Part shown: in pieces, positions 4,286-64,000 of the stretch
Layout: the number at the start of each line of letters is the position of its first letter
Numbering within the stretch: position 1 is the first letter of the stretch
Source of the DNA: Halichondria panicea
Lineage: Eukaryota; Porifera; Demospongiae; Suberitida; Halichondriidae
DNA length: 64,000 nucleotides
Assembly: GCF_963675165.1 (NCBI RefSeq)
Contig: NC_087386.1
Span: 298,931 to 362,930, forward strand
Reading direction: 5' to 3'
Notes under the pieces: generated by a model
Database searches by the model: none
Seen by the model: the letters and a program-made list of their open reading frames with translations, nothing else
Told to the model about the DNA's origin: nothing
Program-made: the position numbers and the translations under genes

Positions 4286-4490
4286 ATATAGTTCATTTAA
4301 TATTATTGTCTCACATTTCATTATTTTGTGCACACTTCATGTTCTACCCATCACGTGCTGTAAAAAAGTTATATTTCGAGGGCGGAAAATTACAAAGTTG
4401 AAAAGTAACATGTGTTGTTAACGATCTTTACCAGATATGTGCTTACCAAAGATATAGGAGGTTAGCTAGATAGTCTGACTGCATGCAGTC

Positions 4491-40702: not shown

Positions 40703-43700
40703 ATGGCTGCTAGTTCCCCACAGTTGATGAAGGATGGTCTTACTTGGTTGAATAGGGTATGATATTCACATGATAGATAGATACTCAATGATCAGTGCAT
40801 TCTCCTAGTGCCTAGATGTACTTGTTGCTTGGCATCATTCATTCATCACAGTATAGTGCCTACACTCTACCCTGTCAGTGTGAGGTGTTTTATCTCATGT
40901 TGTTGTTCTCTCCACATGTACCACTCTCTCTGGATGGACAACAGCTAGGGATTAAGGTACGTTGTGTGCAATCACATTCTACCAAGCTGACATGCTTGTG
41001 CTCTGAGCACTTGTTGTTAGGAGGTAGACAGTGTAAAGAAGAGCACATACGGATAACTGAATGTGATACTATTCCTTAATTGAGACCAGTAGATCTACTC
41101 GTAGTAGTACCTGAAAGTATGCATGGTTAATCAAGTGTTTCAGTCTGCATGTTTGGCTGTCCACAATTGTTTCCCCTCCCCTGTCTCATGCATCACCAGT
41201 GTACTGTATCACTGCACTAATGTTCTCTTCCTTCCATTTCATGCATCTCCACCTCACCTTGACTGACCCTCTGAAACAACAGGGTGTAAGTTGGTGTGTG
41301 TTGTCAGAGTATTTAGTGTCTGTTGCATATTCTGTGATGTTTCTACTTCCCCATTATTACTCTTGTGTGTGTGCAGTGCCATAGTGTTATATAGGGAAAT
41401 ATTTAGTATGATCACATTCAACCTCGTAATCATTCATTTACTATCTTCCCACGTGTTTGCCCTGTGGACTCTCCCTCTCTGGATCAACAGTCTGTAAGTT
41501 GTGTTTGCACGTGCACACTCATTTTAATGGTTACTAGGAACTCGTAAATTAATATTTAGCCGAGGCCCACACAACTTATTAGGCTGTACTTATAATTATT
41601 ACTTTTGGTGGTTCATAGAATATGCATCTAAGTTGGTACATTATCGTGTTTGTCTCTTCCCATGCACACACTCATTCCTATGTTGGACCACACACTGATT
41701 TGGACTATTGTAGAAGGTGAGCTTCTTACGAGTACTCAATGTCTACACACTAAAATGGTTCAGCTCCAATGTGTACGGATGTACTGGTTACCTAGCATCA
41801 TTAGCGTGTGTCCCTTGTCCTCTAGAGCTGACCCTCTCCCTCGTATAGGGTAGACCATGGCTACGGGGACGATATCAGCCTCCCAGTTTGTGGTTACCCC
41901 AGGTGTAGGCCAGGGCACATTTTAACTGTTCAATTCGTAGTCCCATTTTACGCACAAGTTGGTGCGTATACATTAATTTTGTGTACATTGTGTTCATGTA
42001 AATTCCACAACTAATTAAGTTGTTGAAGATATTTCCCAAGAGCTTTTCTATGCACCACCATTGTGTACATTGTGTACATGTAAATTTGTGTTTATGTAAA
42101 TTCCCCAACCAATTAAGTGCCTACTGAACCTAAAACTTGTTGCCTATTTCTCCCAACTTTTTTATTTCTTAGCTTTTCTATGCCAGGTCTAGCCACTTGT
42201 TGCTATGTGTAGTCAGTCCCATACACACCAACGTTCAACTGATCTGATGTCTTGTATGTGTGTTAAGATTAAATCTCTCCCTCACATGTACCATTTGATG
42301 TGTCTCAGGTTCTCATTAAGGTATGTTGTGATTGTGTGTTTACCGTCCCTTCCACTGACCCACCCACTGACCCTTCCATTATCTGCTATTGCTAGTACCG
42401 AGTACCTGTGTGTGTACTAGCCAGTGTGTGTACTACCAGTGTTCATATCCCTCTCTCCTCACATGTACCCTCTGTGGACTGTTACTCAACAACAGGGCGT
42501 GAGTTTATTGCATGTACATATAATGGCGTACTAGGCTGACTTGTATACATGTACTACTGCATGAAGGCAGAAAGAATAACTTGCGTGACTTTATTTAGGA
42601 TTAGTATGTACTGAAAGTTTCATGCTGTACAGAAGTGTACTTGCAATAGTTGATGTATACATGTGTGAATGCATTCGTGTATTTGAACATGTTCATTTCT
42701 CTACATGTCCGTGTCCTACTGCTTGTTAATGTAACTACTGCTAATGATTACTGGAACAACAGTATGTAAGTTACAGTATACAGACATGCATGAATGCACT
42801 CACTGCTCCTACCATCATCCCCCTCTCTCTGTTTCCATGTGTGTCTAACGCTGGTGTCTCATTGGACTAAACAGAAGGTGAGCGGGACACTGCACTGACT
42901 TGTGACTGTACTTGTGTCAGTAATGTTTGAGTTGCATGAGTACATGTGTATTGGCATTCATAGTGTACTGGTTTGTGATTATATTCTTTTCTCTCTCCCT
43001 ACATTTCCATGGTTACTGAATATCTGGAACGATAGAGAGTGAGTTAAACAATGTTGGCAAACATACCGTACACCTCATGTGCATTCAGTTTGTAATAGTC
43101 TCATATCCTTACTTGACTCTAGTAGCTATACTGGTTGCTCCTATAGACAACTCATAATGTGTGACCACAAACACACAGTCTAACCCACTCTTGTCTTGTT
43201 AACCTTGTCCAGGATAAGGATGAGAAGGAGAGTAAACTGATGCATCATAAGATGGTGAGTGTTGACAGTTGCACTTACTACTCTCGTGGTAAGAGTGGTA
43301 CACGTAGTCTAGCAGAACGACAATGTGTGTACATGTACTGTCCATTGTATGATGAATGGTTGCTTTTTGTCTACCTTTGTGTATGTTTTATAAGTCCACT
43401 TTTACTGTTTGACTGTGTGAGGTTATACCGTATAGCGGGTAAATATAATATTATGATATACTCGTCAAGGTTGGTGGTTGCTGATTTTTATATTTTGATA
43501 ATTTGTACATTTGTATCAGCTGTATGTTCTATTTGGTGGAATGTTCATTCAGTCGTATATATATTCTTTACTCCCCCAGGGAAGAGTTGCCCTCCAACAG
43601 AGACTGTCTGGTGACATCACTGACCAGGACCGGAGACAACTGCAGGGAGAGCTGGAGGAGGTGGAGTGGGAGATCAAGAAGTGTGTCTCTGAGATACAAG

Positions 43701-46700
43701 ACTGTGAGGAGGATATACAATACTATGAGAATGATATTGCTGAGACACGGAGAAGAGGAAAGGAGAAGCAAAGAAAGGAAGGTGAGGGGAGCAAGGAACT
43801 TTATAGTACAGTGAGTGTTGATGCTCATAGTTGCAATCACTCGTACCTGTAGCAACTTACATGTAGTGTGTTATTAGTAGACTGTACCTACAGCTGGTCC
43901 ATTTAATGAAAGCTTTTACTATGTTCGTAATCCCGCTCTTTTTGTTGGTTTTATAAACTTTATGTTGCTAGGAAACTGACTTTTGTACACGTCTGAGCTA
44001 CCGTATATGCTTGATCAGAGGCCGCTCTCAAATAGTAGCCTCAGTGAACTTTGACTCTAGCATTTCTGCACATGGCAGCCAGGCTAGTATTAATGATTTA
44101 GCTACATGTACCTAGCTACTAGCCTAGTAGCTAGGTACAGGTAGCTAGGTACAGGTAGCAGCTTGTTAGTGCTTCACAAGACTTTCTCATGGCAGAGTTC
44201 AGGTTTATGCAAGTGAAAAGAACTTTTGAGGACAAACTAAAGGTTGTTGAATTAGCTGGAGCTAATAAACACCACTTTTGAATTGTAGCCTCCTCTTCCA
44301 GCAAAATGAAACCTTTACATTTAGTAGCCGCGGCCTCTGATCAAGCATATGCTGTATATTCCTTGCTATTCCACACATCTGTCACAGTGTACATGTATTA
44401 TAATTATGGACACTGTTTATCAGACGTTGATTAATACGTACATCAATATGTGCACATACATGTACAGTCACTGTGATTGAGTGATTGGGTTGGTAACGTT
44501 GTACTGTGTACTTAGTGACATCATCATGTTAATTCATTCATAGCACATTCCTGTAATGATCAGCCACATTCCCTGTCATTGGTGGGTCACTCACTTAGCA
44601 AGCTTTAAAGGTTTATGTACGTACAGCTGCTGTATCCATTGTTTGTAGCAGATTGATGCCGGTCCTTCCATTAAATGCTTTTCTTTTGTGTAACTTGAGT
44701 TACACTACCCAGTGGCGGATCCAGGGGGAGATCCCAGGGTGCCACGGATCCCCCCTTTCAGTCTAGCTATTGTGGCTTTACTACAGCTACCAGCTAGCTA
44801 TTTATCAGTTTTGTAGCTATTGTAATTTGATTCAATGATTGTACCTGTTGTTTTGATGCATCAACTGCCAAAGGAGTGTTCAGGTTAACCTAGGCTAGCT
44901 TGTTGACTGTTCGTGGCAGCTAGCTAGCTCTACACAAGTCTATTATGGGACTTCTCCTGGCTGAGTATGGGATTTTCCCAAGTCACGTGAGACCGGAAGT
45001 GGGCGTAACCCCAAAAATTTCGCGCTATGCACTCGTAGTTTGGAACCCCCCTTTCATTTTCCTGGATCCGCCACTGCATATGCTACCTAGTTGCCTTCCA
45101 CACTCTATTGCATGTACATGCAGAATGATTTGTGTATGTGTGTATTCTGAGTCTGCTCACCTGAATGCCATAGCGCTGCTTTTACAGCGTGGATAGCCTC
45201 CACACAAAATATATAATAATAGCCTCTAACCTCTAGTTGTTTGGCTAACTGTTATATAAGCGAAAGCTCGGCCTGGGATCGAGGCTATAGGATAGCCTCC
45301 ACACAAAATAATGACATTTAATAAAAGAATAAAAGCTAAGAAGCTATACACATTGGCTATAGAGCTAGCTAGATATAGTAGTCGGCTTTAATTGGAGGCA
45401 CTTCATTACACATGTGCACTATGACAGCCAACTGGAGCCCTACCTGAGAAGACACTACAGCTGCATGGCTGTACATATTGTTATGTCTCAGATGCGCATT
45501 GTCAACTTAAAATTAATGTAATAGCTGTCTTGTGTACTGTTTTCGTAAAAAATAGCTGTTTTGCTGAAAACACAAGCCAGAGGCAGCACTGTATCAATTG
45601 GTGTGTGTTCAATTGATGACCCTTTACCAGTAAAGTCGTGACGCTTAATGGAAGCTGTGTGCACATGTTTTCTTCCCATTGCTCATTGCCCCACCCACTG
45701 TGACATCACCATTTTTTTCTATTACATCAATAATTATTATGTTTGCATGTCATACCTTTTGTAGCTAGGCAACCGACTACATATCCATGTGTTTGAGTTA
45801 GTGTACTATAGACTATATTGCATGTGTAATTATAGTGACATATTGTTTAGAATCAGCGAAGCGGTTGTTTGATGAGGCGATGAAGCACGGACATGTCTTG
45901 GTCAACATTGTCAACATGCTCGTGTTTGGACCGGCGGGAACAGGGAAGACCAACCTCAAGCACCTGCTAACTGACAAGCCCCCTCCACTACACCGAGACA
46001 GCACTCCTTGTATGGAAAAGCCAGTACGCATTCGACCCGTGTCCAACACGAAATTCAGGTCAACTGGAAGAGGTTGGGAAGAGATGTCTCAGCCAAAGCT
46101 GCGCAAGCTACTTGCTCAAATCATCGCCAAGTTACCAAAAGAAAGTGCCGATCCATCCACAGCATCAAGGGTTGCCGAGAGCTTGAAGAAGATGACCACA
46201 ACCGAGTCAATTTCTGGTTCTAATGAGCACTTTTCTGATTCCGATGTGCCATTTTCTGATTATTCAGATAATTCAAATTCTAGTTCCGATGAGTTAGTTT
46301 CTGATTCCGATGTGCCATTTTCTGATTATTCAGATGATTCAAATTCTAGTTCCGATGAGTTAGTTTCTGATTCCAGTTCGAGCCCATCGAGGAACGATTC
46401 CGATGAATTTTCTGGCTCTACAAGAAAGTTGAAGAAAGCCGTTGATAAAGTGATAGCGAGTGTAGTGAGTGGTGTGGCAGAAGAGCTGAAGCCAGCCACA
46501 CAGGGAACTGACCAACTGTCGAGCAGTGACCAGCAAGAAGGAGAACTGTTTGATTCCAACTGGGTGTATGTTACCGACTGCGGCGGCCAGCCGCAATTTC
46601 ACGACATCAGCCCTCTCTTCATCAAGCACATTTCAGTGGCGTTGATAGTCCTGCGTTTGATTGACGAACTCTCCAGTTTCCCTTCTGACGAGTACTACAA

Positions 46701-49700
46701 GGATGGGCAGCTTGTTGGTAGTCCTCATGCATCTCACATGACCCTCAGGGAGACACTTCAGAGTCTCATTCGATCCATTGAGTCCCATACCTCACAAGAC
46801 AAGAAGCCGAAGATGATCTTTGTGGGCACATTCTTAGATCAGCTGAAGAGCTCGGATACACTTATCAAGAGGAATCAAGAGATTCTCGACATGCTGCCAC
46901 CCGATATCAAGAAGCTATTGGTGTACGAAAATCTTGGAATGAACAATCTGATTTTTGGTCTTAACACAATCAGCCGAGAAGATAATTCACTGGCCACTGC
47001 CAATAGGATTAGAATTGCTATTGAGCGTTCTATTCCGTTGAAAGTCAAAATGCCCATCTGGTGGTCCTTCTTGGATTCACTTCTCCAGAGTTTATCTGCC
47101 AGTCTCGAGCGAGGTGTATTAAGCATTGAAGAATGTCTCCAATTAGCCACTCGATTTGGTTATGTGCTCCAAGATCTTGAAGCTGCTCTGGTCTTCTTTG
47201 ACAGCGTGTGTATAGCGCACTACTATCCCTCCATTCTCCCCAACACAGTGTTTGTGGATGCCCAGATTCCTCTAGACAAGATCACTGAGCTCTCACAGCA
47301 CGCCATCTCCCTGAGGGATCCTGAAGTCAAATCAAGCACAGGAGGGACAGATGCCGAATGGAAGAGATTTAGAGACGAGGGCATAATCACTGTAAAGTTC
47401 CTACAATTCTTCGAGAAGCATTACGTTGAAGGCATCTTTTCTCCAGAAGATATGCTGTTGATCATGAAAAAGCTTCTCGTGATTGCTCCCATTCCTCTAG
47501 TGGAAGCCACTCCCCACCAAGCCGAGTTCTTCATGCCATCTCTACTCACATCGATCCCACCTGCTGAGTTAGACGAAATTCGTTCCTCCTTCACAACATC
47601 ACCCCTCGCTGTCTACTTTCGTAGTGGGTGTATTCGCTCTGGAGTCTTTTGCTGTCTAGTTGTGGACGTGATCAAGAGGGTGGGCTGGCAAGTTTTGTTG
47701 CCTTCAGGGAAACCAATCTGTTTTGCTAAAAATTGTATCCAGCTAAGAATTCCCAAGCACCCGTGCACCGTGGCTCTGATCGACTCATTCTCGTATATCG
47801 AAGTGTACATTGACGTCCCTTTTCCTCTGCGCAAAAAACTTTGTCTTTCCATTCGCAATGAAATTTTGATCAGCATTAAATCGTCCTGTGACATGTTGCA
47901 TTACAACAACGACACACCCGAGACAGCCATCTTTTGCCCTTGCAAGAAGAGCACTGGAAGCATACGCAAATTGCACCTTGCTGATCTGAGTGAACGGAAG
48001 GACTATTGGATATGCTCCCAGGAGGCACGTGTGTATGGGAAGCTCAGTGACGAACATAGAATCTGGCTGGACAATAGCGAAGGTTCAGGTGAGTATAATA
48101 ATTATTGTGTTCAGTAATATTGACATTTATGTTTCCCTATGTTAGGTGAACCATCCTCTGTTACGAGAGATGTCACTGAAAGAACGAGTGATCAGCTGCA
48201 ATACCCCGGTAATTACGTAGTAACATTTGTAGATTTATTTGATTGGAATTACGTGTACTACATAGTTACTTGATTGATTACATATTTTTTGTTTGAGCGA
48301 CTCTTGTATTATCCCCCTCAGGCCCATCGTCCCCTGTAGTGGAACCTGCGCGTAAGAAGATGAGAATGAGTGATCAACATACCAGTAAGGAAGTGCCATT
48401 AATTTGGTTGATAAGTTATTTTACTTGATCACTAATAATAATTATTATCCAGTCTATTTTATCATTCTTCTTTCCTTGTCATAATTATTTACTGTATGTA
48501 TCGGTTATATAAATAATTCTAAGGTTCTGGTGATCAACGCTTTTACGTATTCTGTACTGCAGGTGAATTGTCCTCTGTTACAGTAATGGAAGATGTGTGT
48601 AAGAAGACTGGAGTGAGGGACCAACAACTAGATCAAGAAATCCCTGAGAATGACATCACTCGATTTGCGGAGAAATTTCCTCAACTGCTGAGCGTGCACA
48701 AGGTAGGCAGTACTCTACATCTTAATAAATACTTATCATCCTGACATTTTGGCAAGGGGAGCAAACGGTGTACATGTAAGATGTTAGGTGGGGGTGAGGC
48801 AAGGGGTGTACATGTAAGATGTTAGGTGGGGTGATGGTTAGGTGGGGGTGAGGCAAGGGGTGTACATGTAAGATGTTAGGTGGGGTGATGGTTAGGTGGG
48901 GGTGAGGCAAGGGGTGTACATGTAAGATGTTAGGTGGGGGTGAGGCAAGGGGTGTACATGTAAGATGTTAGGTGGGGGTGAGGCAAGGGGTGTACATGTA
49001 AGATGTTAGGTGGGGTGATGGCTAGGTGGGGGTGAGGCAAGGGGTGTACATGTAAGATGTTAGGTGGGGGGTGATGGTTAGGTGGGGGTGAGGCAAGGGG
49101 TGTACATATAAGATGTTAGGTGGGGTGATGACATGTTTGTGGTTATGCCAATTCCGTACCCTCGCGAAAATAAGCCTATCTTGAATAAACGCCCATCCCC
49201 TCTTTTACTTCGAAGTTCTTGCACGAGGGTATTTTCACTCGACTGGACCAATATCAGACATATAACTTTCTCTGTATATGGATCAGTTTGCCCTTGAAGA
49301 TGTATATGCAGGGAACAAGTAGTCCTATATGCTGAGAAAGGAAAACACAAAGTCTAAGAAAGTTATCACACAGGCTAATTTTGCAGGTTACCTTGCCTTT
49401 GTTTTCTGAAACAAAGTACCTGATAGCTGCTCTGTAGGAGTGTGACCTACCATCCTTCGGGAAGTTCTGCTAACATCTGACATCGACAAGCAACGAATAG
49501 AGTCAGAGTCGATCCACTTCTTCATGTTCATTCTCTTGTCATGCTTTACATGCATTATAGTTTATAACATTGTTGTTGTCAATAAAATATTCATATACCG
49601 TATATCTTCTAATTTATCGGACACTTTTAATTACCCCGGACACTCTTTTGGGCAATTTTCGTTGTTCTAATACAACGGACACTCCAGTGCTTTAATATTA

Positions 49701-50937
49701 CATTTGTTCTAAATATCCGGACAATACCCTTGAAAAGTTGAGTTTCTTTCATAGACGGCAAGTAAGACAAGACTTAGAGTGCTTCAGTTAGATAGCTTTG
49801 AGTAGCTAGTTTTAGAAAGCTAGTGCAACTATTCAGTCGTACACTGTTCTATTAAACCTAGCTAGCTCGCATGCAGCTGCTTGCTTGTTCTAATTATTTC
49901 GGACACTTCGCATGCTCTATAAAAATATGTTCCAATTATACCCGGACAATTTCTAAAATAATTATTTTTTGCTGTCCAATAAATTAGAAGATATACGGTA
50001 CTATGTATTAAAATGAAAATACAATAAATTAATAAAGATTGTCATAGAGCAAAGTGTAAACCTTGATTTGAGGCCGCGGATGGGCGTATATTTGAATGAA
50101 AACTCGCCGTTCGCGATTAAACGCCCAGTCCCCTAATAAGCCTAGACTTCTTGCAGAAAAGGGTGGGCTTATTTTCGCGAGGGTACAGTAATCAAGAATT
50201 CATTAACTTGCCCTATTAAGAATGTTCACCAGAACCACTCAATTGTATTCCCATTGAGTTTCCTAGAAGGTATTTGCTAGGGGCAACCCCCACCAAATGA
50301 AACACTGTTTATTTTACAGGCTTTGACAATTAACGATCTACAACATGTCTATGTGACTCTACATGAAAGTGCCCCTTACTGGTTGAATCTGGGATTGGCT
50401 CTAGGTCTCAGTCATCCTGTTCTCAACAACATCGATACTGGCAAGCATCGTGGCGATAATCTGTCTTGCTTGCGTGAAATGCTGGTTAAGCTCCTGAGTA
50501 CACAAGATGTAACATGGAGTCTCCTGTCAGATGCTCTCAAAAAGCCCACAGTGAAACTCGTCAATTTGGCTGATAGCATCATGGGTAATTACCATTTTCA
50601 GTGTTTGTGTAGTTTGCTTTATTTGTCATTTTTAGTGCTTGATATAAACATGAAAATGTACATTAATTTTTGTGATGCCTTTTTTCTTCATGCAGTTAAT
50701 CAATCCAACCTGCTCGATGGACTCAACCTCACCCCAGCCGACCTTGATGATGTAACTGATGTCACACGTCGTTATGGCGATCAAGCTGGAGTGGCTCATG
50801 CATTGAGAGTGTGGCGAAAAGTGAATCCTTCCAGAGCTACCTTCAGGGCCTTGGTGGAAATTGCTATAGAACTGAGAAGAGGAGACACTGCTACAGACAT
50901 TTGTAGATTCATTGTAAAGGAACTGAACAAAAATTAA
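40703..50937 (+). CDS. Roc-COR GTPase with microexon-encoded N-terminus and two C-terminal Death-fold domains, copy A
   Basis: Exons: 40703-40756, microexons 40945-43038 (listed in the next entry), 43213-43254, 43580-43781, 45851-48088, 48146-48208, 48322-48384, 48563-48702, 50320-50584 and 50696-50937; the total is 1117 residues. Residues 50-115 are charged coiled coil (LQQRLSGDITDQDRRQLQ). The 2.2-kb exon holds a ROCO-type GTPase: P-loop FGPAGTGKTNLK, switch II VTDCGGQPQFHDISPLF, G4-like FVGTFLDQL, then a COR-like region. An acidic Ser/Asp loop sits between P-loop and switch II. After short linker exons come a Death domain (LALGLSHPVLNNIDTGKHRG) and a second Death-fold helical domain (RRYGDQAGVAHALRVW). 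The layout suggests an intracellular switch that recruits Death-domain partners in immunity or cell death (inference). Exact orthology is unknown. Confidence 0.8.
40945..43254 (+). other. Microexon array, copy A (12- and 3-nt exons)
   Basis: Predicted exons, with sequence and residue: 40945-40956 CTAGGGATTAAG (LGIK); 41283-41285 GGT (G); 41491-41493 TCT (S); 41714-41716 AAG (K); 42309-42320 GTTCTCATTAAG (VLIK); 42496-42498 GGC (G); 42763-42765 TAT (Y); 42875-42877 AAG (K); 43036-43038 AGA (R); then a 42-nt exon at 43213-43254. Each is bounded by AG and by GTAAGT, GTGAGT, GTGAGC, GTACGT or GTATGT, and most have the acceptor context TGGAN(C/A)AACAG and an upstream CTCTC...CACATG pyrimidine tract. 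All are phase 0, so any subset keeps the frame. The introns are 109-592 bp. Use in mRNA is not proven from sequence. Confidence 0.72.
44001..44354. mobile_element. TIR element with TA target duplication, family 2 (copy A)
   Basis: Ends CCGTATATGCTTGATCAGAG and the inverse GATCAAGCATATGCTG enclose 354 bp, with TA at 43999-44000 and 44355-44356. The same element at the same place in copy B (58631-58970) shows that it predates the duplication. Confidence 0.85.
44710..45076. mobile_element. TIR element with CAGTGGCGGATCCAGG ends
   Basis: Inverted ends CAGTGGCGGATCCAGG and CCTGGATCCGCCACTG bound 367 bp. The copy B counterpart starts at about 59326 (CAGTGGCGGATCTAGG) but has lost its right end. 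Confidence 0.8.
48755..49130. repeat. Minisatellite, GTACATGTAAGATGTTAGG unit
   Basis: Units of about 35-55 bp (GTGTACATGTAAGATGTTAG plus GTGGGGGTGAGGCAAGG) are repeated about eight times in the copy A intron. Copy B has a single unit at the same site (about 63215-63240), so the expansion happened after duplication. Confidence 0.88.
49154..50188. mobile_element. Large TIR element inserted in copy A only
   Basis: Inverted ends GTACCCTCGCGAAAATAAGC (49156) and GCTTATTTTCGCGAGGGTAC (50186) bound about 1 kb. The paralogous intron in copy B reads straight from GCCAAT to AATCAAG (about 63262) and is an empty site. A family 1 MITE is nested inside at 49598-49998. No transposase was recognised. Confidence 0.8.
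49598..49998. mobile_element. TIR element (MITE), family 1 copy 2, nested
   Basis: The 401 bp element is inverted relative to 7521-7914 and shares its ends and internal GTCCGG / TTAGAAC motifs. TA flanks it at 49596-49597 and 49999-50000. It interrupts the larger element above. Confidence 0.88.
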
Positions 50938-51253: not shown

Positions 51254-53320
51254 TCATCTCTTTCTTTTCTTCTTAGCATCAGCCTCATCGTCATCGTCCT
51301 GAGGTTTAGCCTTTGTCTTAGACTCCACTAGAGCAGTGGTTGTTTTCTTCATGAGATCTCTGCTCACAAACTCCTCATCGCTACCACTGTCCTCGTCTAC
51401 AGGGGGGGGGGGGTTAGAATAATACATACAAGTCTATACATTGCTTACCATAGAACATTTGTCGTGAGCCCATCTTTGGCAGGTCCACCTTCACATTGCC
51501 AGCCATACCGCCCTCGACAACATGGCGGAACTGTGACAACAGAAATACAGTGGATGTACTTTAGAATAAAAAACAGCAACACATTACAGTCCTCGTGGAT
51601 CTAAGACACAGTGATTTATAATTATAATAATTAAGTCACAGCAGCTCACCTCCTCGTCCTCCATCTCCTTGTGGACAGTGTCCAGGTCCCTACTAGAGAG
51701 CTCCTCCGCTAGACTCACTAACTTGCCCTCCACACTGCTCAGCTGTTCGATCACATACTCCTCACTGCCAGGGGACAGCTTGGGCTTCAGGGCATGAGAG
51801 TGAGGCTATACAGGGGTTAGGGGGTATGTGTTGGTACAGGGCATGAGAGTGGGGCTATACAGGGGTTAGGGGGTATGTGTTGGTACAGGGCATGAGAGTG
51901 AGGCTATACAGAGGTTAGGGGGTATGTGTTGGTACAGGGCATGAGAGTGGGGCTATACAGGGGTTAGGGGGTATGTGTTGGTACAGGGCATGAGAGTGAG
52001 GCTATACAGAGGTTAGGGGGTATGTGTTGGTACACAGGGCATGAGAGTGGGGCTATACAGGGGTTAGGGGGTATGTGTTGGTACAGGGCATGAGAGTGAG
52101 GCTATACAGAGGTTAGGGGGTATGTGTTGGTACAGGGCATGAGAGTGAGGCTATACAGGGGTTAGGGGGTATGTGTTGGTACAGGGCATGAGAGTGAGGC
52201 TATACAGAGGTTAGGGGGTATGTGTTGGTACAGGGCATGAGAGTGAGGCTATACAGAGGTTAGGGGGTATGTGTTGGTACACAGGGCATGAGAGTGGGGC
52301 TATACAGGGGTTAGGGGGTATGTGTTGGTACAGGGCATGAGAGTGAGGCTATACAGGGGTTAGGGGGTATGTGTTGGTACAGGGCATGAGAGTGGGGCTA
52401 TACAGGGGTTAGGGGGTATGTGTTGGTACAGGGCATGAGAGTGAGGCTATACAGGGGTTAGGGGGTATGTGTTGGTACAGGGCATGAGAGTGAGGCTATA
52501 CAGAGGTTAGGGGGTATGTGTTGGTACAGGGCATGAGAGTGAGGCTATACAGGGGTTAGGGGGTATGTGTTGGTACACAGGGCATGAGAGTGGGGCTATA
52601 CAGGGGTTAGGGGGTGTGTGTTGGTACAGGGCATGAGAGTGAGGCTATACAGGGGTTAGGGGGTGTGTGTTGGTACAGGGCATGAGAGTGAGGCTATACA
52701 GGGGTTAGGGGGTATGTGTTGGTACAGGGCATGAGAGTGGGGCTATACAGGGGTTAGGGAGTATGTGTTGGTACAGGGCATGAGAGTTGAGAGTGGGGCT
52801 ATACAGGGGTTAGGGAGTGTGTGTTGGTACAGGGCATGAGAGTGAGGCTATACAGGGGTTAGGGGGTATGTGTTGGTACAGGGCATGAGAGTGGGGCTAT
52901 ACAGGGGTTAGGGGGTATGTGTTGGTACAGGGCATGAGAGTGAGGCTATACAGGGGTTAGGGGGTATGTGTTGGTACAGGGCATGAGAGTGGGGCTATAC
53001 AGGGGTTAGGGGGTATGTGTTGGTACAGGGCATGAGAGTGAGGCTATAATAAATTGAAGTCCTATACAATTTTATATTGCACCACAATTAATCTAAAGCT
53101 TGTACTACATTTGCAGATATGTACTTGTGTAGTCGTACAATACACACACACAGTACTTTCTTACTGCTTTGATGTGCTGCATCTTCTCTGTGAGATGCTC
53201 CACTCCGTTGTTGACCTGTCCCAAAAGTTTATTGGCACTCTTGGTTTTACTCTCACTCTCAGCACACTTCCTCTTGGCATCGTCAAGGTGACCTTAGAAC
53301 TCCTCCAGCATACGCTGACC

Positions 53321-53668: not shown

Positions 53669-54656
53669 CTCTTTAGGCAGCTCCAATTTTGTGTACAGAT
53701 CCAACTTGTCACAGCTTGGCCAGATGTCTCCCTGCATGATTGGATCGATTTTATCTCTGCCAAGGAGAATTTGACATCTTCACAACTTAGGAGGCCGGCT
53801 AGATCGTGGGCACAGAATTCAAACACGAGGTAAATGCTCCCTCTCTCTCTGTTGTACGGAGTCGCTGTAAGGAGAGAGAGAGATATCGTATATAGCAGGT
53901 TTATATTGAGGGTATAAACTTTCGCGGAAAGGCTACTAGAAAGGTTTTCGAAGATTTACTTCTCACGAAATAGCAGATTTTTTTGGCATGCATGCGATAT
54001 TAAATTCGTGGGTATAAACATTTGCGGTACAATTAATCAGCGAGCATTTATACTCGCTATACGGTACCTTGCTATACAATCATAAATTAATTTGTGAGGC
54101 CATTTCCACTGATACAAACTAGTCAATGGTGCTACATTACCTTTGGTCCTACAGATCTCAATAAGGGACACGATGTTCTCATGGTCGAGCAGTTGTAGTA
54201 TCCGTATCTCCCTCAGTGCAGTCATGGGAAACTGCACAGTGTGTGACAATGAATGAAATGTCACCTTATTGAAACAACAGGCTGTTATGACACTTAAGAC
54301 TACCTACACAAAACATGATATGCTGCATGCTTATGGGCGAAATATAGAAATATTGCATAATTAGAGTGCCGCCTTCAATTGAGATGTTCCGGTACTGTGA
54401 CCACGACTCACCCCTTCAGTCTCATTCTCCATCCGCACTTTCTTAAGAGCTACGAGTGCATTTGTCCTCCTATTGCGAGCTTTAAACACCTCCTTAATAG
54501 TGACGAAGACATTGTTACTGATCATACAGGATTCTAGAGTGCTGCCATGAACGTGAACAGATTGTATCTCTATCAGAAAGCTCCCTTAATTGAGTCCTAA
54601 TACGATTTATGGGAAGTCAACGTTGTGTGTGTGTGTGTGTGTGTGTGCCCTTTGTG

Positions 54657-54973: not shown

Positions 54974-57900
54974 ATGGCTGAATCTACAACACTGAATGCT
55001 GCTAGTTCCCCACAGTTGATGGAGGATGATTTCACTACTGGGGAATGGGTATGATATTCACATGATAGATAGATACTCAATGATCAGTGCATTCTCCTAG
55101 TGCCTAGATGTACTTGTTGACCACCCATAAACACACTTGGCATCATTCATTCATCACAGTATAGTGCCTACACTCTACCCTGTCAGTGTGAGGTGTTTTA
55201 TCTCATGTTGTTGTTCTCTCCACATGTACCACTCTCTCTGGATGGACAACAGTGGGAGATTAAGGTACGTTGTGTGCAATCACATTCTACCAAGCTGACA
55301 TGCTTGTGCTCTGAGCACTTGTTGTTAGGAGGTAGACAGTGTAAAGAAGAGCACATACGGATAACTGAATGTGATACTATTCCTTAATTGAGACAAGTAG
55401 ATCTACTCGTAGTAGTACCTGAAAGTATGCATGGTTAATCAAGTGTTTCAGTCTGCATGTTTGGCTGTCCACAATTGTTTCCCCTCCCCCTGTGTTCATG
55501 CATCACCAGTGTACTGTATCACTGCACTAATGTTCTCTTCCTTCCATTTCATGCATCTCCACCTCACCTTTGACTGACCCTCTGAAACAACAGACTGTAA
55601 GTTGGTGTGTGTTGTCAGAGTATTTAGTGTCTGTTGCATATTCTGTGATGTTTCTACTTCCCCATTATTACTCTTGTGTGTGTGCAGTGCCATAGTGTTA
55701 TATAGGGAAATATTTAGTATGATCACATTCAACCTCGTAATCATTCATTTACTATCTTCCCACTGTTTGCCCTGTGGACTCTCCCTCTCTGGATCAACAG
55801 TGGGTTAGTTGTGTTTGCACGTGCACACTTATTTTAATGGTTACTAGGAACTCGTAAATTAATATTTAGCCGAGGCCCACACAACTTATTAGGCTGTACT
55901 TATATTACTTTTGGTGGTTCATAGAATATGCATCTAAGTTGGTACATTATCGTGTTTGTCTCTTCCCATGCACACACTCATTCCTATGTTGGACCACACA
56001 CTGATTTGGACTACTGTAGGAGGTGAGCTTCTTACGAGTACTCAATGTCCACACACTAAAATGGTTCAGCTGCAATGTGTACGGATGTACTGGTTACCTA
56101 GCATCATTAGCGTGTGTCCCTTGTCCTCTAGAGCTGACCCTCTCCCTCGTATAGGGTAGACCATGGCTACGAGGACGATATCAGCCTCCCAGTTTGTGGT
56201 TACCCCAGGTGTAGGCCAGGGCACATTTTAACTGTTCAATTCGTAGTCCCATTTTACGCACAAGTTGGTGTGTATCATTAATTTTGTGTACATTGTGTTC
56301 ATGTAAATTCCACAACTAATTAAGTTGTTGAAGATTTTTCCCAAGAGCTTTTCTATGCACCACCATTGTGTACATTGTGTACATGTAAATTTGTGTTTAT
56401 GTAAATTCCCCAACCAATTAAGTGCCTACTGAACCTAAAACTTGTTGTTGCCTATTTCTCCCAACTTTTTTATTTCTTAGCTTTTCTATGCCAGGTCTAG
56501 CCACTTGTTGCTATGTGTAGTCAGTCCCATACACACCAGCGTTCAACTGATCTGATGTCTTGTATGTGTGTTAAGATTAAATCTCTCCCTCACATGTACC
56601 ATTTGATGTGTATCAGAAGGCCATTGAGGTATGTTGTGATTGTGTGTGTGTCTCGTGGAGTGCGTGTGTTGTATTGTACAACAAACAAAATCATATGTAT
56701 TAAAGTTGTACATGTAAGATGCTTGTTGTACCGTTTACCGTCCCTTCCACTGACCCACCCACTGACCCTTCCATTATCTGCTATTGCTAGTACCGAGTAC
56801 CTGTGTGTGTACTAGCCAGTGTGTGTACTACCAGTGTTCATATCACTCTCTCCTCACATGTACCCTCTGTGGACTGTTACTCAACAACAGACTGTGAGTT
56901 TATTGCATGTACATATAATGGCGTACTAGGCTGACTTGTATACATGTACTACTGCATGAAGGCAGAAAGAATAACTTGCGTGACTTTATTTAGGATTAGT
57001 ACGTACTGAAAGTTTCATGCTGTACAGACGTGTACTTGAAATAATTGATGTATACATGTGTGAATGCATTCATATACTATATAGCGCGAAATTTTTGAGG
57101 CACTTATATTTCGTGAAATGGCCTCTAAACGCATTTCGTTGCACAATGTTCGCGGAATATCTGCTTACCGGAAGCCACGCCTTTAAATCTTTGCACGTTA
57201 TAGCAGATAATTCTAATTAAAGAACAATTTTCGTGGACTTAGTACGTACTGAAAGTTTCATGCTGTACAGACGTGTACTTGCAATAATTGATGTATACAT
57301 GTGTGAATGCATTCGTGTATTTGAACATGTTCATTTCTCTACATGTCCGTGTCCTACTGCTTGTTAATGTGACTACTGCTAATGATTACTGGAACAACAG
57401 AGTGTAAGTTACAGTATGCAGACATGTATGAATGCACTCACTGCTCCTACCATCATCCCCCTCTCTCTGTTTCCATGTGTGTCTTACGCTGGTGTCTCAT
57501 TGGACTAAACAGAAGGTGAGCGGGACACTGCACTGACTTGTGACTGTACTTGTGTCAGTAATGTTTGAGTTGCATGAGTACATGTGTATTGGCATTCATA
57601 GTGTACAGGTTTGTGATTATATTCTTTTCTCTCTCCCTACATTTCCATGGTTACTGAATATCTGGAACAATAGAAAGTGAGTCAAACAATGTTGGCAAAC
57701 ATACCGTACACCTCATGTGCATTCAGTTTGTAATAGTCTTATATCCTTACCTGACCCTCGTAGCTACACCTATAGACAACTCATAATGTGTGACCACAAA
57801 CACACAGTCTAACTCACTCTTGTCTTTGTTCACCTTGTCCAGTATAAGGCTGGGCATGAGAGTGAACTGAAGCGTCATGAGACGGTGAGTGTTGACAGTT

Positions 57901-60900
57901 GCACTTACTACTCTCGTGGTAAGAGTGGTACACGCAGTCTAGCAGAACGACAATGTGTGTACATGTACTGTCCATTGTATGATGAATGGTTGCTTTTTGT
58001 CTACCTTTGTGTATGTTTTATAAGCCCACTTTTACTGTTTGACTGTGTGAGGTTATACCGTATAGCGGGTAAATATAATATTATGATATACTCGTCAAGG
58101 TTGGTGGTTGCTGATTTTTATATTTTGATAATTTGTACATTTGTATCAGCTGTATGTTCTATTTGGTGGAATGTTCATTCAGTCGTATATATATTCTTTA
58201 CTCCCCCAGAGAAGAGCTGCCCTCCAACAGAGACTGTCTGGTGACATCACTGACCAGGACCGGAGACAACTGCAGGGAGAGCTGAAGGAGATGGAGGGGG
58301 AGATCAAGAAGTGTGTCTCAAAGATACAAGTGTGTGAGGGGAGGATACAATACTATGAGAATGAGATTGCTAAGACACGACTAAGACCAGAGGAGAGGCA
58401 GAGAAAGGAAGGTGAGGGGAGCAAGGAACTTTATAGTACAGTGAGTGTTGATGCTCATAGTTGCAATCACTCGTACCTGTAGCAACTTACATGTAGTGTG
58501 TTATTAGTAGACTGTACATACAGCTGGTCCATTTAATGAAAGCTTTTACTATGTTCGTAATCCCGCTCTTTTTGTTGGTTTTATAAACTTTATGTTGCTA
58601 GGAAACTGACTTTTGTACACGTCTGAGCTACCGTATATGCTTGATCAGAGGTCGCTCTCAAATAGTAGCCTCAGTGAACTTTGACTCTAGCATTTCTGCA
58701 CGTGGCAGCCAGGCTAGTATTAATGATTTAGCTACATGTACCTAGCTACTAGCCTAGTAGCTAGGTACAGGTAGCAGCTTGTTAGTGCTTCACCGTGGCA
58801 AAGACTTTCTCATGGCAGAGTTCAGGTTTATGCAGGTGAAAAGAACTTTTGAGGACAAACTAAAGGTTGTTGAATTAGCTGGAGCTAATAAACGCCGCTT
58901 TTGAATTGTAGCCTCCTCTTCCAGAAAATGAAACATTTAGTAGCCGCGGCCTCTGATCAAGCATATACGGTATATTCCTTGCTATTCCACACATCTGTCA
59001 CAGTGTACATGTATTATAATTATGGACACTGTTTATCAGACGTTGATTAATACGTACATCAATATGTGCACATACATGTACAGTCATTGTGATTGAGTGA
59101 TTGGGTTGGTAACGTTGTACTGTGTACTTAGTGACATCATCATGTTAATTCATTCATAGCACATTCCTGTAATGATCAGCCACATTCCCTGTCATTGGTG
59201 GGTCACTCACTTAGCAAGCTTTATGTACGTACAGCTGCTGTATCCATTGTTTGTAGCAGATCGATGCCGGTCCTTCCATTAATTAACCTTTTGTGTAACT
59301 TGAGTTACACTACACAGTGGCGGATCTAGGGGGAGATCCCAGGGTGCCACGGATCCCCCCTTTCAGTATAGCTATTGTGACTTTACTACAGCTACCAGCG
59401 AGCTATTTATCAGTTTTGTAGCTATTGTAATTTGATTCAATCATTGTACCTGTTGTTCTGATGCATCAACTGCCAAAGGAGTGTTCAGGTTAGCTAGGCT
59501 AGCTAGTTGACTGTTCGTGGCAGCTAGCTAGCTCTACACAAGGGACTTCTCCTGGCTGAGTATTGGATTTTCCCTAGTCACATGAGACCGGAAGTGGGCA
59601 TAACCCCAACAATTTTGCACTGTGCGCTCGTAGTTTGGAACCCCCCTTTTATGTAAGAGCTACCTAGTTGCCTTCCACACTCAAATGTACTCTATTGCGT
59701 GTACATGCAGAATGATTTGTGTATGTGTGTATTCTGAGTCTGCTCACCTGAATGCCATAGCGCTGCTCTTACAGCGTGGATAGCCTCCACAAATAATGGC
59801 ATAAAAGCAAGCAAAAGCTAAGACACTTACTATACACATTGGCTATAGAGCTAGCTAGATGTAGTAGTCGGCTTTAATTCGAGGCACTTCATTACACATG
59901 CGCACTATGACAGCCAACTGGAGCCCTACCTGAGAAGACACTACATGGCTGTACATATTATTATGTCTCGGGTGCACATTGTCAGCTTAAAATTAATGGA
60001 ATAGCTGCAACTGTTTTCGTAAAAACAGCCGCTTTGCTGAAAACACAAGCAGCACCGGTGTGTGTTCGTTCAATTGGTGTTCGTTCAATTGAAGGCCCTT
60101 TACCAGTAAAGTCGTGACGTATGATTATAATGTTGGTAAAGGAAGATTTGTGCATACATTTCTCATGTTTTCTACTCATCACCATTCTTTTATTACATCA
60201 ATCAAATGTTTACATGTCTTTTGTAGCTAGGCAACCAACTACATATGTGTTATGTTTGAGTTAGTGTATGCATGTGTAATTATAGTGACATATTGTTTAG
60301 AATCGAAGCGATTGTTTGATGAGGCGATGAAGCACGGACACGTCTTGGTCAACATTGTCAACATGCTCGTGTTTGGACCGGCGGGAACAGGGAAGACCAA
60401 CCTCAAGCACCTGCTAACTGACAAGCCCCCTCCACTACAGCGACACAGCACTCCTTGTATGGAAAAGCCAGTACGCATTCGATCCGTGTCCAACACGAAA
60501 TTCAAAACAACTGGAAGAGGCTGGGAAGAGATGTCTCAGCCAAAGCTGCGCAAGCTACTTGCTCAAATTATCGCCAAGTTACCAAAAGAAAGCACTGATC
60601 CATCCACCGTATCAAGGGTTGCCAAGAGCTTGAAGAAGATGACCACAACCAAGCTATTTTCTGACCACTTTTCTGATTCCATTTCGAGCCCATCGAGGAA
60701 CGATTCCGATGAACTTTCTGGCTCTACAAGAAAGTTGAAGAAAGCCGTTGATAAAGTGATAGCGAGTGTAGTGAGTGGTGTGGCAGAAGAGCTGAAGCCA
60801 GCCACACAGGGAACTGACCAACTGTCGAGCAGTGACCAGCAAGAAGGAGAACTGTTTGATTCCAACTGGGTGTACGTTACCGACTGTGGCGGCCAGCCGC

Positions 60901-63900
60901 AATTCCACGACATCAGCCCTCTCTTCATCAAGCACATTTCGGTGGCGTTGATAGTCCTGCGTTTGATTGACGAACTCTCCAGTTTCCCTTCTGACGAGTA
61001 CTACAAGGATGGGCAGCTTGTTGGTAGTCCTCATGCATCTCACATGACCCTCGGGGAGACACTTCAGAGTCTCATTCGATCCATTGAGTCCCATACCTCA
61101 CAAGACAAGAAGCCGAAGATGATATTTGTGGGCACATTCTTAGATCAGCTGAAGAGCTCGGATACACTTATCAAGAGGAATCAAGAGATTCTCGACATGC
61201 TGCCACCCGATATCAAGAAGCTATTGGTGTACGAAAATCTTGGAATGAACAATCTGATTTTTGGTCTCAACACAATCAGCCGAGAAGAAGATTCACTGGC
61301 CACTGCCAATAGGATTAGAATTGCTATTGAGCGCTCTATTCCGTTGAAAGTCAAAATGCCCATCTGGTGGTCCTTCTTGGATTCACTTCTCCAGAGTTTA
61401 TCTGCCAGTCTCGAGCGAGGTGTACTAGGCATTGAAGAATGTCTCCAATTAGCCACTCGATTTGGTTATGTGCTCAAAGATCTTGAAGCTGCTCTGGTCT
61501 TCTTTGACAGCGTGTGTATAGCGCACTACTATCCCTCCATTCTCCCCAACACAGTGTTTGTGGATGCCCAGATTCCACTAGACAAGATCACCGAGCTCTC
61601 ACAGCACGCCATCTCCCTGAGGGATCCTGAAGTTAAATCAAACACAGGAGGGACAGATGCCGAATGGAAGAGATTTAGAGACGAGGGCATAATCACTGTA
61701 AAGTTCCTACAATTCTTCGAGAAGCATTACATTAAAGGCATCTTTTCTCCAGAAGATATGCTGTTGATCATGAAAAAGCTTCTCGTGATTGCTCCCATTC
61801 CACTAGTGGAAGCCACTCCCTACCAAGCCGAGTTCTTCATGCCATCTCTACTCACATCGATCCCACCTGCTGAGCTAGACAAAGTTCGTTCCTCCTTCAC
61901 AACATCACCCCTCGCTGTCTACTTTCGTAGTGGGTGTATTCGCTCTGGAGTGTTTTGCTGTCTAGTTGTGGACGTAATCAAGAGGGTGGGCTGGCAAGTT
62001 TTGCTGCCTTCAGGGAAACCAATCTGTTTTGCTAAAAATTGTATCCAGCTAAGAATTCCCAAGCACCCGTGTACCGTGGCTCTGATCGACTCATTCTCGT
62101 ATATCGAAGTATACATTGACGTCCCTTTTCCTCTGCGCAAAAAACTTTGTCTTTCCATTCGCAATGAAATTTTGAACAGCATTAAATCGTCGTGTGACAT
62201 GTTACATTACAACAACGACACACCCGAGACAGGCATCTTTTGCCCATGCAAGAAGAGCACTGGAAGCATACGCAAATTGCACCTTGCTGATGTCAGCGAA
62301 CAGAAAGACTATTGGATATGCTCCCAGGAAGCACGTGTGTGGGGAGAGCTCACTGATGAAGGTAGAATCTGGCTGGACCATAGCGAAGGTTCTGGTGAGT
62401 ACCGAGTGATTTTTATAATTAAAAAGTATATATTTTTCCCTCAATTAGGTGAATCATCCTCTGCTACGAGAGGCACTTGTACGAAGACTGAGAGAAATAG
62501 TGATCAGCAGCAAAACTCCGGTAAGTATACATAACAGCAGCTCTCTATTGAGTGGAAGAACAACATTAACTATCGTTGGTTTGATATGCATGTTGTTGTT
62601 TTAGTAATTCCTTTGTTTTGTTCAGTCCATCAATGTGGGACTCTGGCCAATGTTGTTAGTAGCACTGGATCTGGAATGAGTGATCAACAGCCTTGTTTGA
62701 GTGAGCATGTTAATTGATAAACGTACTACATGAGTGTAACTGCTGTGTCTGCTTTTCCTCAGGTAATTCTGTAATGGAAGATGTGTGCTTGAAGACGGAA
62801 GTACATGTGCATGTTCATGATCAGCGAAATACTTCTGGTAAGCTTTTTATTTTGTGGTTTTTTTGTTTATAACCGTTCCCTCCTCAGACAAATCGTCTCC
62901 TGTGTTCGATATAATGAGTGATCAACATACCAGTAAGAAAATTCAACAAGTTATTTTGAGTTTGAAAGTTTACTTTTTTTCTCGGACCACATTTAGTATA
63001 ACTGTTGTTTTCTTCAGGTGAATTGTCCTCTGTTACAGTAATGGAAGATGTGTGTAAGAAGACTGGAGTGAGGGACCAACAACTAGATCAAGAAATCCCT
63101 GAGAATGACATCACTCGATTTGCGGAGAAATTTCCTCAACTGCTGAGCGTGCACAAGGTAGGTAGTACTCTACATCTTAATAAGTACTTATCATCCTGAC
63201 ATTTTGGCAAGGGAAGTACATGTAAGATGTTAGGTGGGGATGATGACATGTTTGTGGTATGCCAATAATCAAGAATTCATTAACATGCCCGATTATTATT
63301 GTTCACCAGAACCACTCAATTGTATTCCCATTGAGTTTCCTAGAAGGTATTTGCTATAGGGGCAATCCCCACCAAATGAAACACTGTTTATTTTACAGGC
63401 TTTGACAATTAACGATCTACAACATGTCTACGTGACTCTACATGAAAGTGCCCCTTACTGGTTGAATCTGGGATTGGCTCTAGGTCTAACTCATCCTGTT
63501 CTCAACAACATCGATACTGGCAAGCATCGTGGCGATAATCTGTCTTGCTTGCGTGAAATGCTGGTTAAGCTCCTGAGTACACAAGATGTAACATGGAGTC
63601 TCTTGTCAGACGCTCTCAAAAATCCCACAGTGAAACTCGTCAATTTAGCAGATAGCATCACAGGTAACCATTTTCAATGTTTGTGTAGTTTGCTTTATTT
63701 GTCATTTTTAGTGCTTGATATAGACAATAAATTGTACGTATTATTAATTTTAGTGATACCTTTTCTTCATGCAGTCAATCAATCCACAACTCCTAACCTG
63801 CTCGATCGACTCAGCCTCCCCCCAGCCTCCCTCGGTGAATTAACTGATGTCACACGTCGTTATGGCAATCAAGCTGGAGTGGCTCATGCATTGAGAGCGT

Positions 63901-64000
63901 GGCGAAGAGTGAATCCTTCCAGAGCTACCTTCAGGGCCTTGGTGGAAGTTGCCATAGGACTGAGAAGAGGAGACACTGCTACAGACATTTGTACATTCAT
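54974..64000 (+). CDS. Roc-COR GTPase with microexon-encoded N-terminus and Death-fold domains, copy B (3' end outside window)
   Basis: Exons: 54974-55048, microexons (next entry), 57843-57884, 58210-58411, 60301-62394, 62449-62520, 62626-62700, 62763-62837, 62888-62932, 63018-63157, 63399-63663 and 63775 to beyond 64000. Start MAESTTLNAASSPQ. The GTPase exon is nearly identical to copy A (P-loop GPAGTGKTNLK, switch II DCGGQPQFHD) but lacks most of the Ser/Asp-rich loop and one codon near its start. The linker before the Death domain comes from four small phase-1 exons instead of two. Both Death-fold domains follow (NIDTGKHRGDNLSC, then RRYGNQAGVAHALRAW, truncated by the window). No disabling change was found, so it looks functional. 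Confidence 0.8.
55253..57884 (+). other. Microexon array, copy B
   Basis: Predicted exons, with sequence and residue: 55253-55264 TGGGAGATTAAG (WEIK); 55594-55596 ACT (T); 55801-55803 TGG (W); 56020-56022 GAG (E); 56617-56628 AAGGCCATTGAG (KAIE); 56891-56893 ACT (T); 57401-57403 AGT (S); 57513-57515 AAG (K); 57674-57676 AAA (K); then 42 nt at 57843-57884. Positions, order and splice signals match copy A one for one, while the exon bases mostly differ. The donor at 55804 is GTTAGT, the only visible weakening. Confidence 0.72.
57066..57313. repeat. Insertion with flanking 75-bp duplication in a copy B microexon intron
   Basis: Relative to copy A, about 170 bp (TATATAGCGCGAAATTTTTG ... TTTTCGTGGACT) is inserted. 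The 75 bp next to it (AGTACGTACTGAAAGTTTCA ... GAATGCATTC) is present on both sides, at 56998-57072 and 57239-57313. The insert has TTCGCGGA-type motifs like the ATAGCGGGT family. Confidence 0.7.
58412..60300 (+). other. Long intron of copy B
   Basis: This is the counterpart of 43782-45850. It contains the family 2 TIR element at 58631-58970 and a 3'-truncated CAGTGGCGGATC element from about 59326. It is otherwise close to copy A. Confidence 0.6.
58631..58970. mobile_element. TIR element with TA target duplication, family 2 (copy B)
   Basis: Ends CCGTATATGCTTGATCAGAG and GATCAAGCATATACGG, flanked by TA. It is shorter than the copy A partner by small internal deletions. Confidence 0.82.

Follow-up and report, generated by a model that had tools for sequence, protein, structure and literature searches.

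The fungal HET-D/HET-E proteins, the schistosome micro-exon genes (MEGs), the sponge aggregation factors and the ROCO proteins are the closest described systems for a gene family of which two copies, A and B, lie in a 64,000-nucleotide stretch of the demosponge Halichondria panicea (C10:298931-362930, hereafter the window). HET-D/E carry an attached nucleotide switch, schistosome MEGs have small symmetric exons and secreted products with variation tied to splicing, and sponge aggregation factors are extracellular adhesion genes. To our knowledge no sponge self/non-self receptor gene has been proven, and we know of no precedent for specificity codons being carried one per exon. In the literature, 69 WD repeats of HET-D/E comprise 55 combinations at 4 codons (PMC1805685), schistosome MEGs form an expanded family with raised dN/dS (PMC4350168), and self/non-self recognition of sponges has been a subject of grafting studies since 1869, with a polymorphic genetic system thought to underlie it (PMC5450542), where the title of a reference names the aggregation factors polymorphic.

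Copies A (5' region 40703-43781) and B (54974-58411) are members of a family of about 45 units. We assign a probability of roughly 0.78 to the reading that these units form an arrayed family of Roc-COR GTPases with C-terminal Death domains and an N-terminal antiparallel hairpin, a putative specificity face of which is under extreme diversifying selection. The family is thus a candidate self/non-self or pathogen recognition receptor.

Results

The original prediction, made from the window sequence, held that microexons of three or twelve nucleotides (nt) evolve far faster than the introns beside them. Recounting the differences between copies A and B gave the same values, i.e. 11 of 21 bases in the seven 3-nt exons, 4 and 6 of 12 in the two 12-nt exons as read off the alignments, and 10 sites in 9 codons of the 42-nt exon. 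In the alignment run of A against B the introns differed at 37 of 2472 positions (1.5%) as compared to all nine microexon codons scored (19 of 27 bases).

We extended the comparison to more copies of the family. A search of the 131-Mb assembly placed the units on two contigs, C10 and C13, in arrays at 0.34-0.75 Mb and 2.24-2.52 Mb of C10 and about 4.9-6.4 Mb of C13; outside the arrays one microexon pattern also matches C10 at 5.26 Mb and C17. The search patterns for the microexons required splice sites and their matches are therefore not evidence of splice-site conservation. Our main alignment comprises 24 of the about 45 copies, leaving aside L026 and L030 (long insertions), L012, L021 and L028 (partial) and L001, L004, L005 and L007 (duplicates of L009, L010, L029 and L031); L015 and L027 lack some microexons and were counted only where these are present. 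A genome-wide codon table holds 45 anchored copies, 34 of them complete at eight codons. Unless stated otherwise, diversity values refer to the 24 copies.

Mean intron diversity is 0.039 over 2629 sites, with one site above 0.6, and 0.032 within 30 bases of exons, as compared to 0.69, 0.72 and 0.38 at positions 1, 2 and 3 of the eight hypervariable microexon codons. A mean diversity of at least 0.5 is reached by 7 of these 8 codons (the eighth has 0.497) and by 2 of 2687 intron windows of 3 nt. The splice sites and adjoining intron bases are nearly fixed, the codons between them many-valued, and the rest of the 5' region is near-identical across copies. Copy pairs that are 1-2% apart in their introns (54 pairs) differ in 87% of nine codons, exon distance barely tracks intron distance (r = 0.17), and the residue strings of all 34 complete genome copies are different. 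Of the 130 codon-sized units in the codon scan, the final nine fall past the end of the coiled-coil exon, leaving about 121 exon codons, and 27 of these have at least five amino acids. The exons of both copies, as read from the sequence, are the following.

54974..55048, plus strand: copy B exon 1, beginning MAESTTLNAASSPQLMED; each of the hypervariable codons 55037 and 55040 takes 10 amino acids among the 24 copies
55253..55264, plus strand: copy B 12-nt microexon, xxI(E/K); codons 1-2 hypervariable with 11 and 12 amino acids (24 copies); 45 genome matches
55594..55596, plus strand: copy B 3-nt microexon with a hypervariable NNT codon; the 23 copies show 11 different codons, all 23 ending in T, as do 44/45 genome matches
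55801..55803, plus strand: copy B 3-nt microexon, hypervariable; TGG here, paired with a GTTAGT donor
56020..56022, plus strand: copy B 3-nt microexon GAG, hardly varying across the 24-copy alignment
56617..56628, plus strand: copy B 12-nt microexon, codons 1-2 hypervariable (alignment, genome pattern)
56891..56893, plus strand: copy B 3-nt microexon, hypervariable (alignment, genome pattern)
57401..57403, plus strand: copy B 3-nt microexon, hypervariable (alignment, genome pattern)
57513..57515, plus strand: copy B 3-nt microexon AAG, no variation in the alignment of 24 copies
57674..57676, plus strand: copy B 3-nt microexon, K/R/E/N, 4 codons (alignment)
57843..57884, plus strand: copy B 42-nt exon, at least five amino acids in each of five codons; the RefSeq-named models P0007, P0025 and P0035 join it to the exon that follows
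58210..58411, plus strand: copy B coiled-coil exon, in which the turn SGDITDQD is followed by the second hypervariable helix; at least five amino acids in each of nine codons; hairpin predicted by AlphaFold2
58412, plus strand: donor of the copy B coiled-coil exon; exon end read from the sequence and the join in P0007
60301..62394, plus strand: copy B Roc-COR GTPase exon (GPAGTGKT, DCGGQ), from Foldseek and VIA-align on the model of the relative P0007; both ends predicted from splice sites
63263..64000, plus strand: copy B region matching the Death-like exon region of copy A (match to 50186-50912)
40703..40756, plus strand: copy A exon 1, shorter
40945..40956, plus strand: copy A 12-nt microexon CTAGGGATTAAG
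41283..41285, plus strand: copy A 3-nt microexon GGT
41491..41493, plus strand: copy A 3-nt microexon TCT
41714..41716, plus strand: copy A 3-nt microexon AAG
42309..42320, plus strand: copy A 12-nt microexon GTTCTCATTAAG
42496..42498, plus strand: copy A 3-nt microexon GGC
42763..42765, plus strand: copy A 3-nt microexon TAT
42875..42877, plus strand: copy A 3-nt microexon AAG
43036..43038, plus strand: copy A 3-nt microexon AGA
43213..43254, plus strand: copy A 42-nt exon
43580..43781, plus strand: copy A coiled-coil exon
45802..48117, plus strand: copy A open frame holding the Roc-COR exon
50281..50937, plus strand: copy A open frame containing a Death-like stretch that misses the Pfam Death cut-off (E 0.014)

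Mapping of the variable codons narrowed the original prediction in one respect and widened it in another. Most microexons are indeed hypervariable, with the exception of two of the seven 3-nt exons (56020-56022 GAG and 57513-57515 AAG), which are nearly or fully invariant, and the variation is not confined to microexons but also affects the end of exon 1, the 42-nt exon and the 58210-58411 exon.

Next we asked whether selection or a locally raised mutation rate accounts for this contrast, both having been proposed. Steps were counted by parsimony on a tree built from the introns, the values for hypervariable codons being lower bounds due to saturation. Positions 1 and 2 of the hypervariable codons take on average 10.75 and 12.0 steps, as compared to 0.24 per intron site (45-50x). 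The six conserved microexon codons, four within the two 12-nt exons plus the two 3-nt exons, take 0.17 steps at positions 2 and 3, i.e. 0.7x the intron rate, and 2.83 steps at position 1, a value raised by an E/K exchange that is itself an amino-acid change. Stop codons are absent from all 641 hypervariable codons, where random bases would give 30. Since the conserved codons change at positions 2 and 3 no more than introns do and stops are absent, selection on amino acids rather than exon-targeted mutation is indicated; a mutator hitting exons would be expected to alter the third bases of ATT, GAG and AAG too, and these are spared. For the GTPase exon pN/pS is about 0.46 and for exon 1 it is 0.86, while the microexons reach 1.81 and the two exons after them 1.71 and 1.70; the pS values of the small exons rest on few sites. 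The strong diversifying selection originally proposed is thus supported by changes that alter amino acids, introduce no stops, fall on heptad positions of one predicted helix face and affect the positions that also vary most in relatives.

Germline or somatic hypermutation targeted to the microexons would account for codon differences that already seem saturated when the introns of two copies are only 1-2% apart, and for the finding that 12 of 14 codons lack phylogenetic signal on the intron tree at P 0.05 (in one case P is 0.053), as opposed to 119 of 133 informative intron sites that do; the two codons with signal both lie in the coiled-coil exon. The rate at positions 2 and 3 of the conserved codons, the T at the third base of 55594-55596 in all but one of the genome matches and the lack of stops all speak against it, and we consider it scarcely credible; in its exon-targeted form we set it aside on account of those conserved-codon positions. 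As a control without selection we tried the truncated copies L012 and L021, but the two differ at 3 of 860 bases and are too recent to be informative.

Templated exchange, the third process proposed, may have left traces in the introns, where all four combinations occur at 618 of 3403 biallelic site pairs, but the sharing of codons is not accompanied by a clear likeness of the flanks. If exchange were codon-sized, the one-codon exons would be cassettes moved by conversion, with the introns providing homology. Codons of different exons assort freely, as this would predict (shared pairs 529 versus 518 expected in 24 copies, 131 versus 127 in 34 copies), while codons within an exon are mildly linked (94 versus 68 and 10 versus 6.9, respectively). 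C10 and C13 have some codons in common at all eight sites, and TGG with the GTTAGT donor is found in four C10 copies and one C13 copy. On the other hand, having the same codon does not go with a clearly greater likeness of the surrounding 100 bases, except at the first codon of the 42-nt exon (nine codons, compared without significance test), and conversion tracts carrying codons together with their flanks were sought and not clearly found. One hundred sites are near-fixed between the contigs, and 21 of these lie upstream of exon 1. Across the hundred, mixing is rare and seen mainly in L027 and, over a short stretch, in L025; as the sites were chosen for fixation this is weak evidence. Saturation by selection also yields free assortment, so that codon assortment and lack of tree signal fit shuffling or saturation alike, and we regard codon-sized exchange as unlikely.

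We also examined whether the microexons could encode part of a protein. The exon lengths following exon 1 are, in order, 12, 3, 3, 3, 12, 3, 3, 3, 3 and 42 nt, and up to the coiled-coil exon all introns are phase 0 and 109-594 bases long, an array of symmetric microexons as in schistosome MEGs, with putative splicing. The joined product would read xxIE-x-x-E-xxIE-x-x-K-x-xKAxxESELKxxET-RRAALQQRLSGDITDQD..., and its N terminus MAESTTLNAASSPQLMED has no hydrophobic stretch as judged by eye. With Ile as position 0, 15 of the 16 codons with at least eight amino acids fall on positions +2, +3, +5 and +6, and none on 0 or +4. These codons lie 24-43 residues before and 30-41 after the turn, and if every microexon is included they are predicted to face each other where the two arms of an antiparallel hairpin meet at its base. 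This shared heptad register needs each microexon to be included once and is therefore the best evidence for exon status. AlphaFold2 predicts helices 2-36 and 41-104 for P0007, leading into the GTPase; this model includes both the 42-nt exon and the coiled-coil exon and no more than one microexon codon, its first 11 residues coming from a putative intron.

Alternatively, the 3-nt blocks might be variable non-coding tags, with the protein beginning downstream as in the named models. The named models examined, which join the 42-nt, coiled-coil and GTPase exons, begin at or after the 42-nt exon or inside a putative intron, and there is no cDNA among the retrieved sequences, both as this alternative would have it. 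Against it, AG and GT flank each block wherever it is present in the 24 copies (the 42-nt donor of L023 is unaligned), all blocks are phase 0 and, when joined, stay in register with the heptads and hairpin of the ordinary exons, and their codon positions behave like coding sequence. We consider non-coding tags very unlikely and infer that the microexons are spliced into the transcript. Two copies deviate in this region: L015 (C10:2292750-2302600) lacks equivalents of the 56020, 56617 and 56891 exons, and its frame would remain open because all missing exons are phase 0; in the partial copy L012 (C10:2451332) the acceptor AG of the 12-nt exon reads TG.

The GTPase exon had been described as almost unchanged, which does not hold: protein identity between copies A (represented by P0003) and B is 89%, and their DNA identity over 46364-48215 is 94.95%, a divergence greater than that of the introns. 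We extracted 19 GTPase sequences, 17 of which are also in the intron alignment (136 pairs), and obtained a synonymous divergence of 0.169 versus 0.034 for introns; near the 3' end single 250-base bins of C13 copies are up to 28% different from copy B. The GTPase part of the P0007 model matches Roc-COR structures (Foldseek, VIA-align rows about residues 89-795). Pfam detects no kinase or LRR in P0007, and no NACHT or WD40 in P0007, P0023 or P0041, each up to E 1. A Death domain exceeds the Pfam cut-off in P0041 (23.7 versus 22.6 bits).

Finally, we turned to sequences beyond this copy set. Among ena and RefSeq proteins 22 of the 24 distinct coiled-coil motifs of the fetched loci are present, and these proteins therefore stand for the reference. 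The ncbi-labelled sequences of this exon on short contigs have the same intron-derived tail as the others; it is exact in 20 of 29 ncbi-labelled sequences, compared with 53 of 59 others. They form 30 clusters, 3 also ena-labelled and 27 ncbi-only, 25 of the latter with the motif, and none of these 25 matches any of 58 reference-side strings, the nearest being 3-8 of 21 residues off. The ncbi-only sequences, which occur in another assembly only, probably come from other individuals. GTPase exons 55-58% identical occur in relatives on other contigs (494182, 613670, 192528 and others), which are probably one or more other sponges and coincide with H. panicea in the five most variable positions.

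Several further features surround the copies. An intron of copy B contains a 167-base insert (57072-57238), which has a match elsewhere in ten fetched loci and is flanked by a 76-base direct repeat (56996-57071 and 57239-57314, 98.7% identical); a flanking duplication that long is unusual for a simple insertion. Between copies A and B lies a tandem array (51788-53048) of 25.5 copies of a 49-base unit with 95% matches. A protein-kinase open frame on the minus strand (38753-39691) adjoins copy A, and a kinase fragment (39479-39740) recurs, 95% identical, at 53743-54005 upstream of copy B, so that the duplicated unit includes part of the neighbouring kinase gene. The region 4479-8533 holds several open frames, which we take to resemble a Y-family DNA polymerase of the kappa type, and a repeat at 7969-8242.

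Discussion

Variation that changes amino acids and lies on one face makes a recognition surface, as originally suggested, the likely reading. A number of findings weigh against the reading of a Roc-COR family with a diversifying hairpin. Residues of exon 1 or of the joined microexons occur in none of 235 retrieved proteins, and no 3-nt exon has transcript support there. The control by conserved codons comprises six codons only, and the intron tree is weakly resolved, with support of at least 95 at 7 of 21 internal nodes. Since synonymous divergence of the GTPase exceeds intron divergence, the 5' introns are homogenised or constrained, and neutral change may be higher than the intron baseline suggests. 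In distant relatives other positions vary as well, up to 0.78, making the contrast weaker. Pfam Roc scores 13.5 bits, below the cut-off of 27, and Pfam Death passes in one scanned protein, with P0023 and positions 50281-50937 of the window below cut-off and no match in P0007.

On the reading of a diversifying hairpin, which we prefer, one of its arms would be encoded by nine phase 0 exons, each 3 or 12 nt long, and some 15-20 residues on one face at the base of the hairpin would constitute the specificity surface. Diversifying selection would keep altering these residues, favouring rare faces, while recent duplication and exchange inside each array would keep the rest of the 5' region nearly identical. 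The face might meet a variable partner, be it the hairpin of another copy or individual or a microbial ligand, and binding might alter the Roc-COR switch and bring Death domains together, giving a death or rejection signal. We infer that partner binding, GTPase switching and Death-domain signalling would proceed as in cytoplasmic immune or allorecognition receptors. Tentatively, and at less than even odds, we favour a putative role in allorecognition, with putative pathogen sensing ranked close behind.

It is further conceivable, if rather doubtful, that the one-codon exons themselves are the device of a sponge histocompatibility or immune specificity locus, in which homologous introns let recombination assort codons into germline combinatorial specificities. 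If true, hundreds of intron bases would lie between neighbouring specificity codons, so that dozens of copies could recombine there. Exons that each carry a single specificity residue appear to be new among the literature searched: in our open-paper search the family is absent from titles and abstract openings, and no hit combined a demosponge with a microexon. The family is a concrete, testable candidate for sponge recognition, and similar systems may hide elsewhere as the gene models examined miss the variable arm.

In comparison with known systems, sponge aggregation factors are, like this family, sponge proteins, but of extracellular adhesion genes. Schistosome MEGs and the sponge family are both expanded, with raised dN/dS (PMC4350168), yet in the sponge it is between gene copies that the codons differ, and the smallest exons are a single codon long. 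ROCO proteins (LRRK1/2, bacterial Roco) have the predicted Roc-COR fold in common with the family, which has the hypervariable hairpin and Death domains in place of kinase and LRR; its placement among ROCO would rest on fold, the sequence being divergent and not at the level of a Pfam member. Closest in behaviour are the allorecognition receptors HET-D/HET-E (NWD) of Podospora, described in PMC1805685 as multi-copy, with homogenised units and few diversifying codons at the interaction face, as in the sponge family, where 27 of about 121 codons diversify in copies with an intron diversity of 0.039. The sponge family has a hairpin spread over microexons instead of WD40 repeats and Roc-COR instead of NACHT, and because these defining domains differ it is not a member of HET-D/E. 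By analogy, the best reading is that the family works like HET-D/E without being one, as recognition receptors under extreme diversifying selection.
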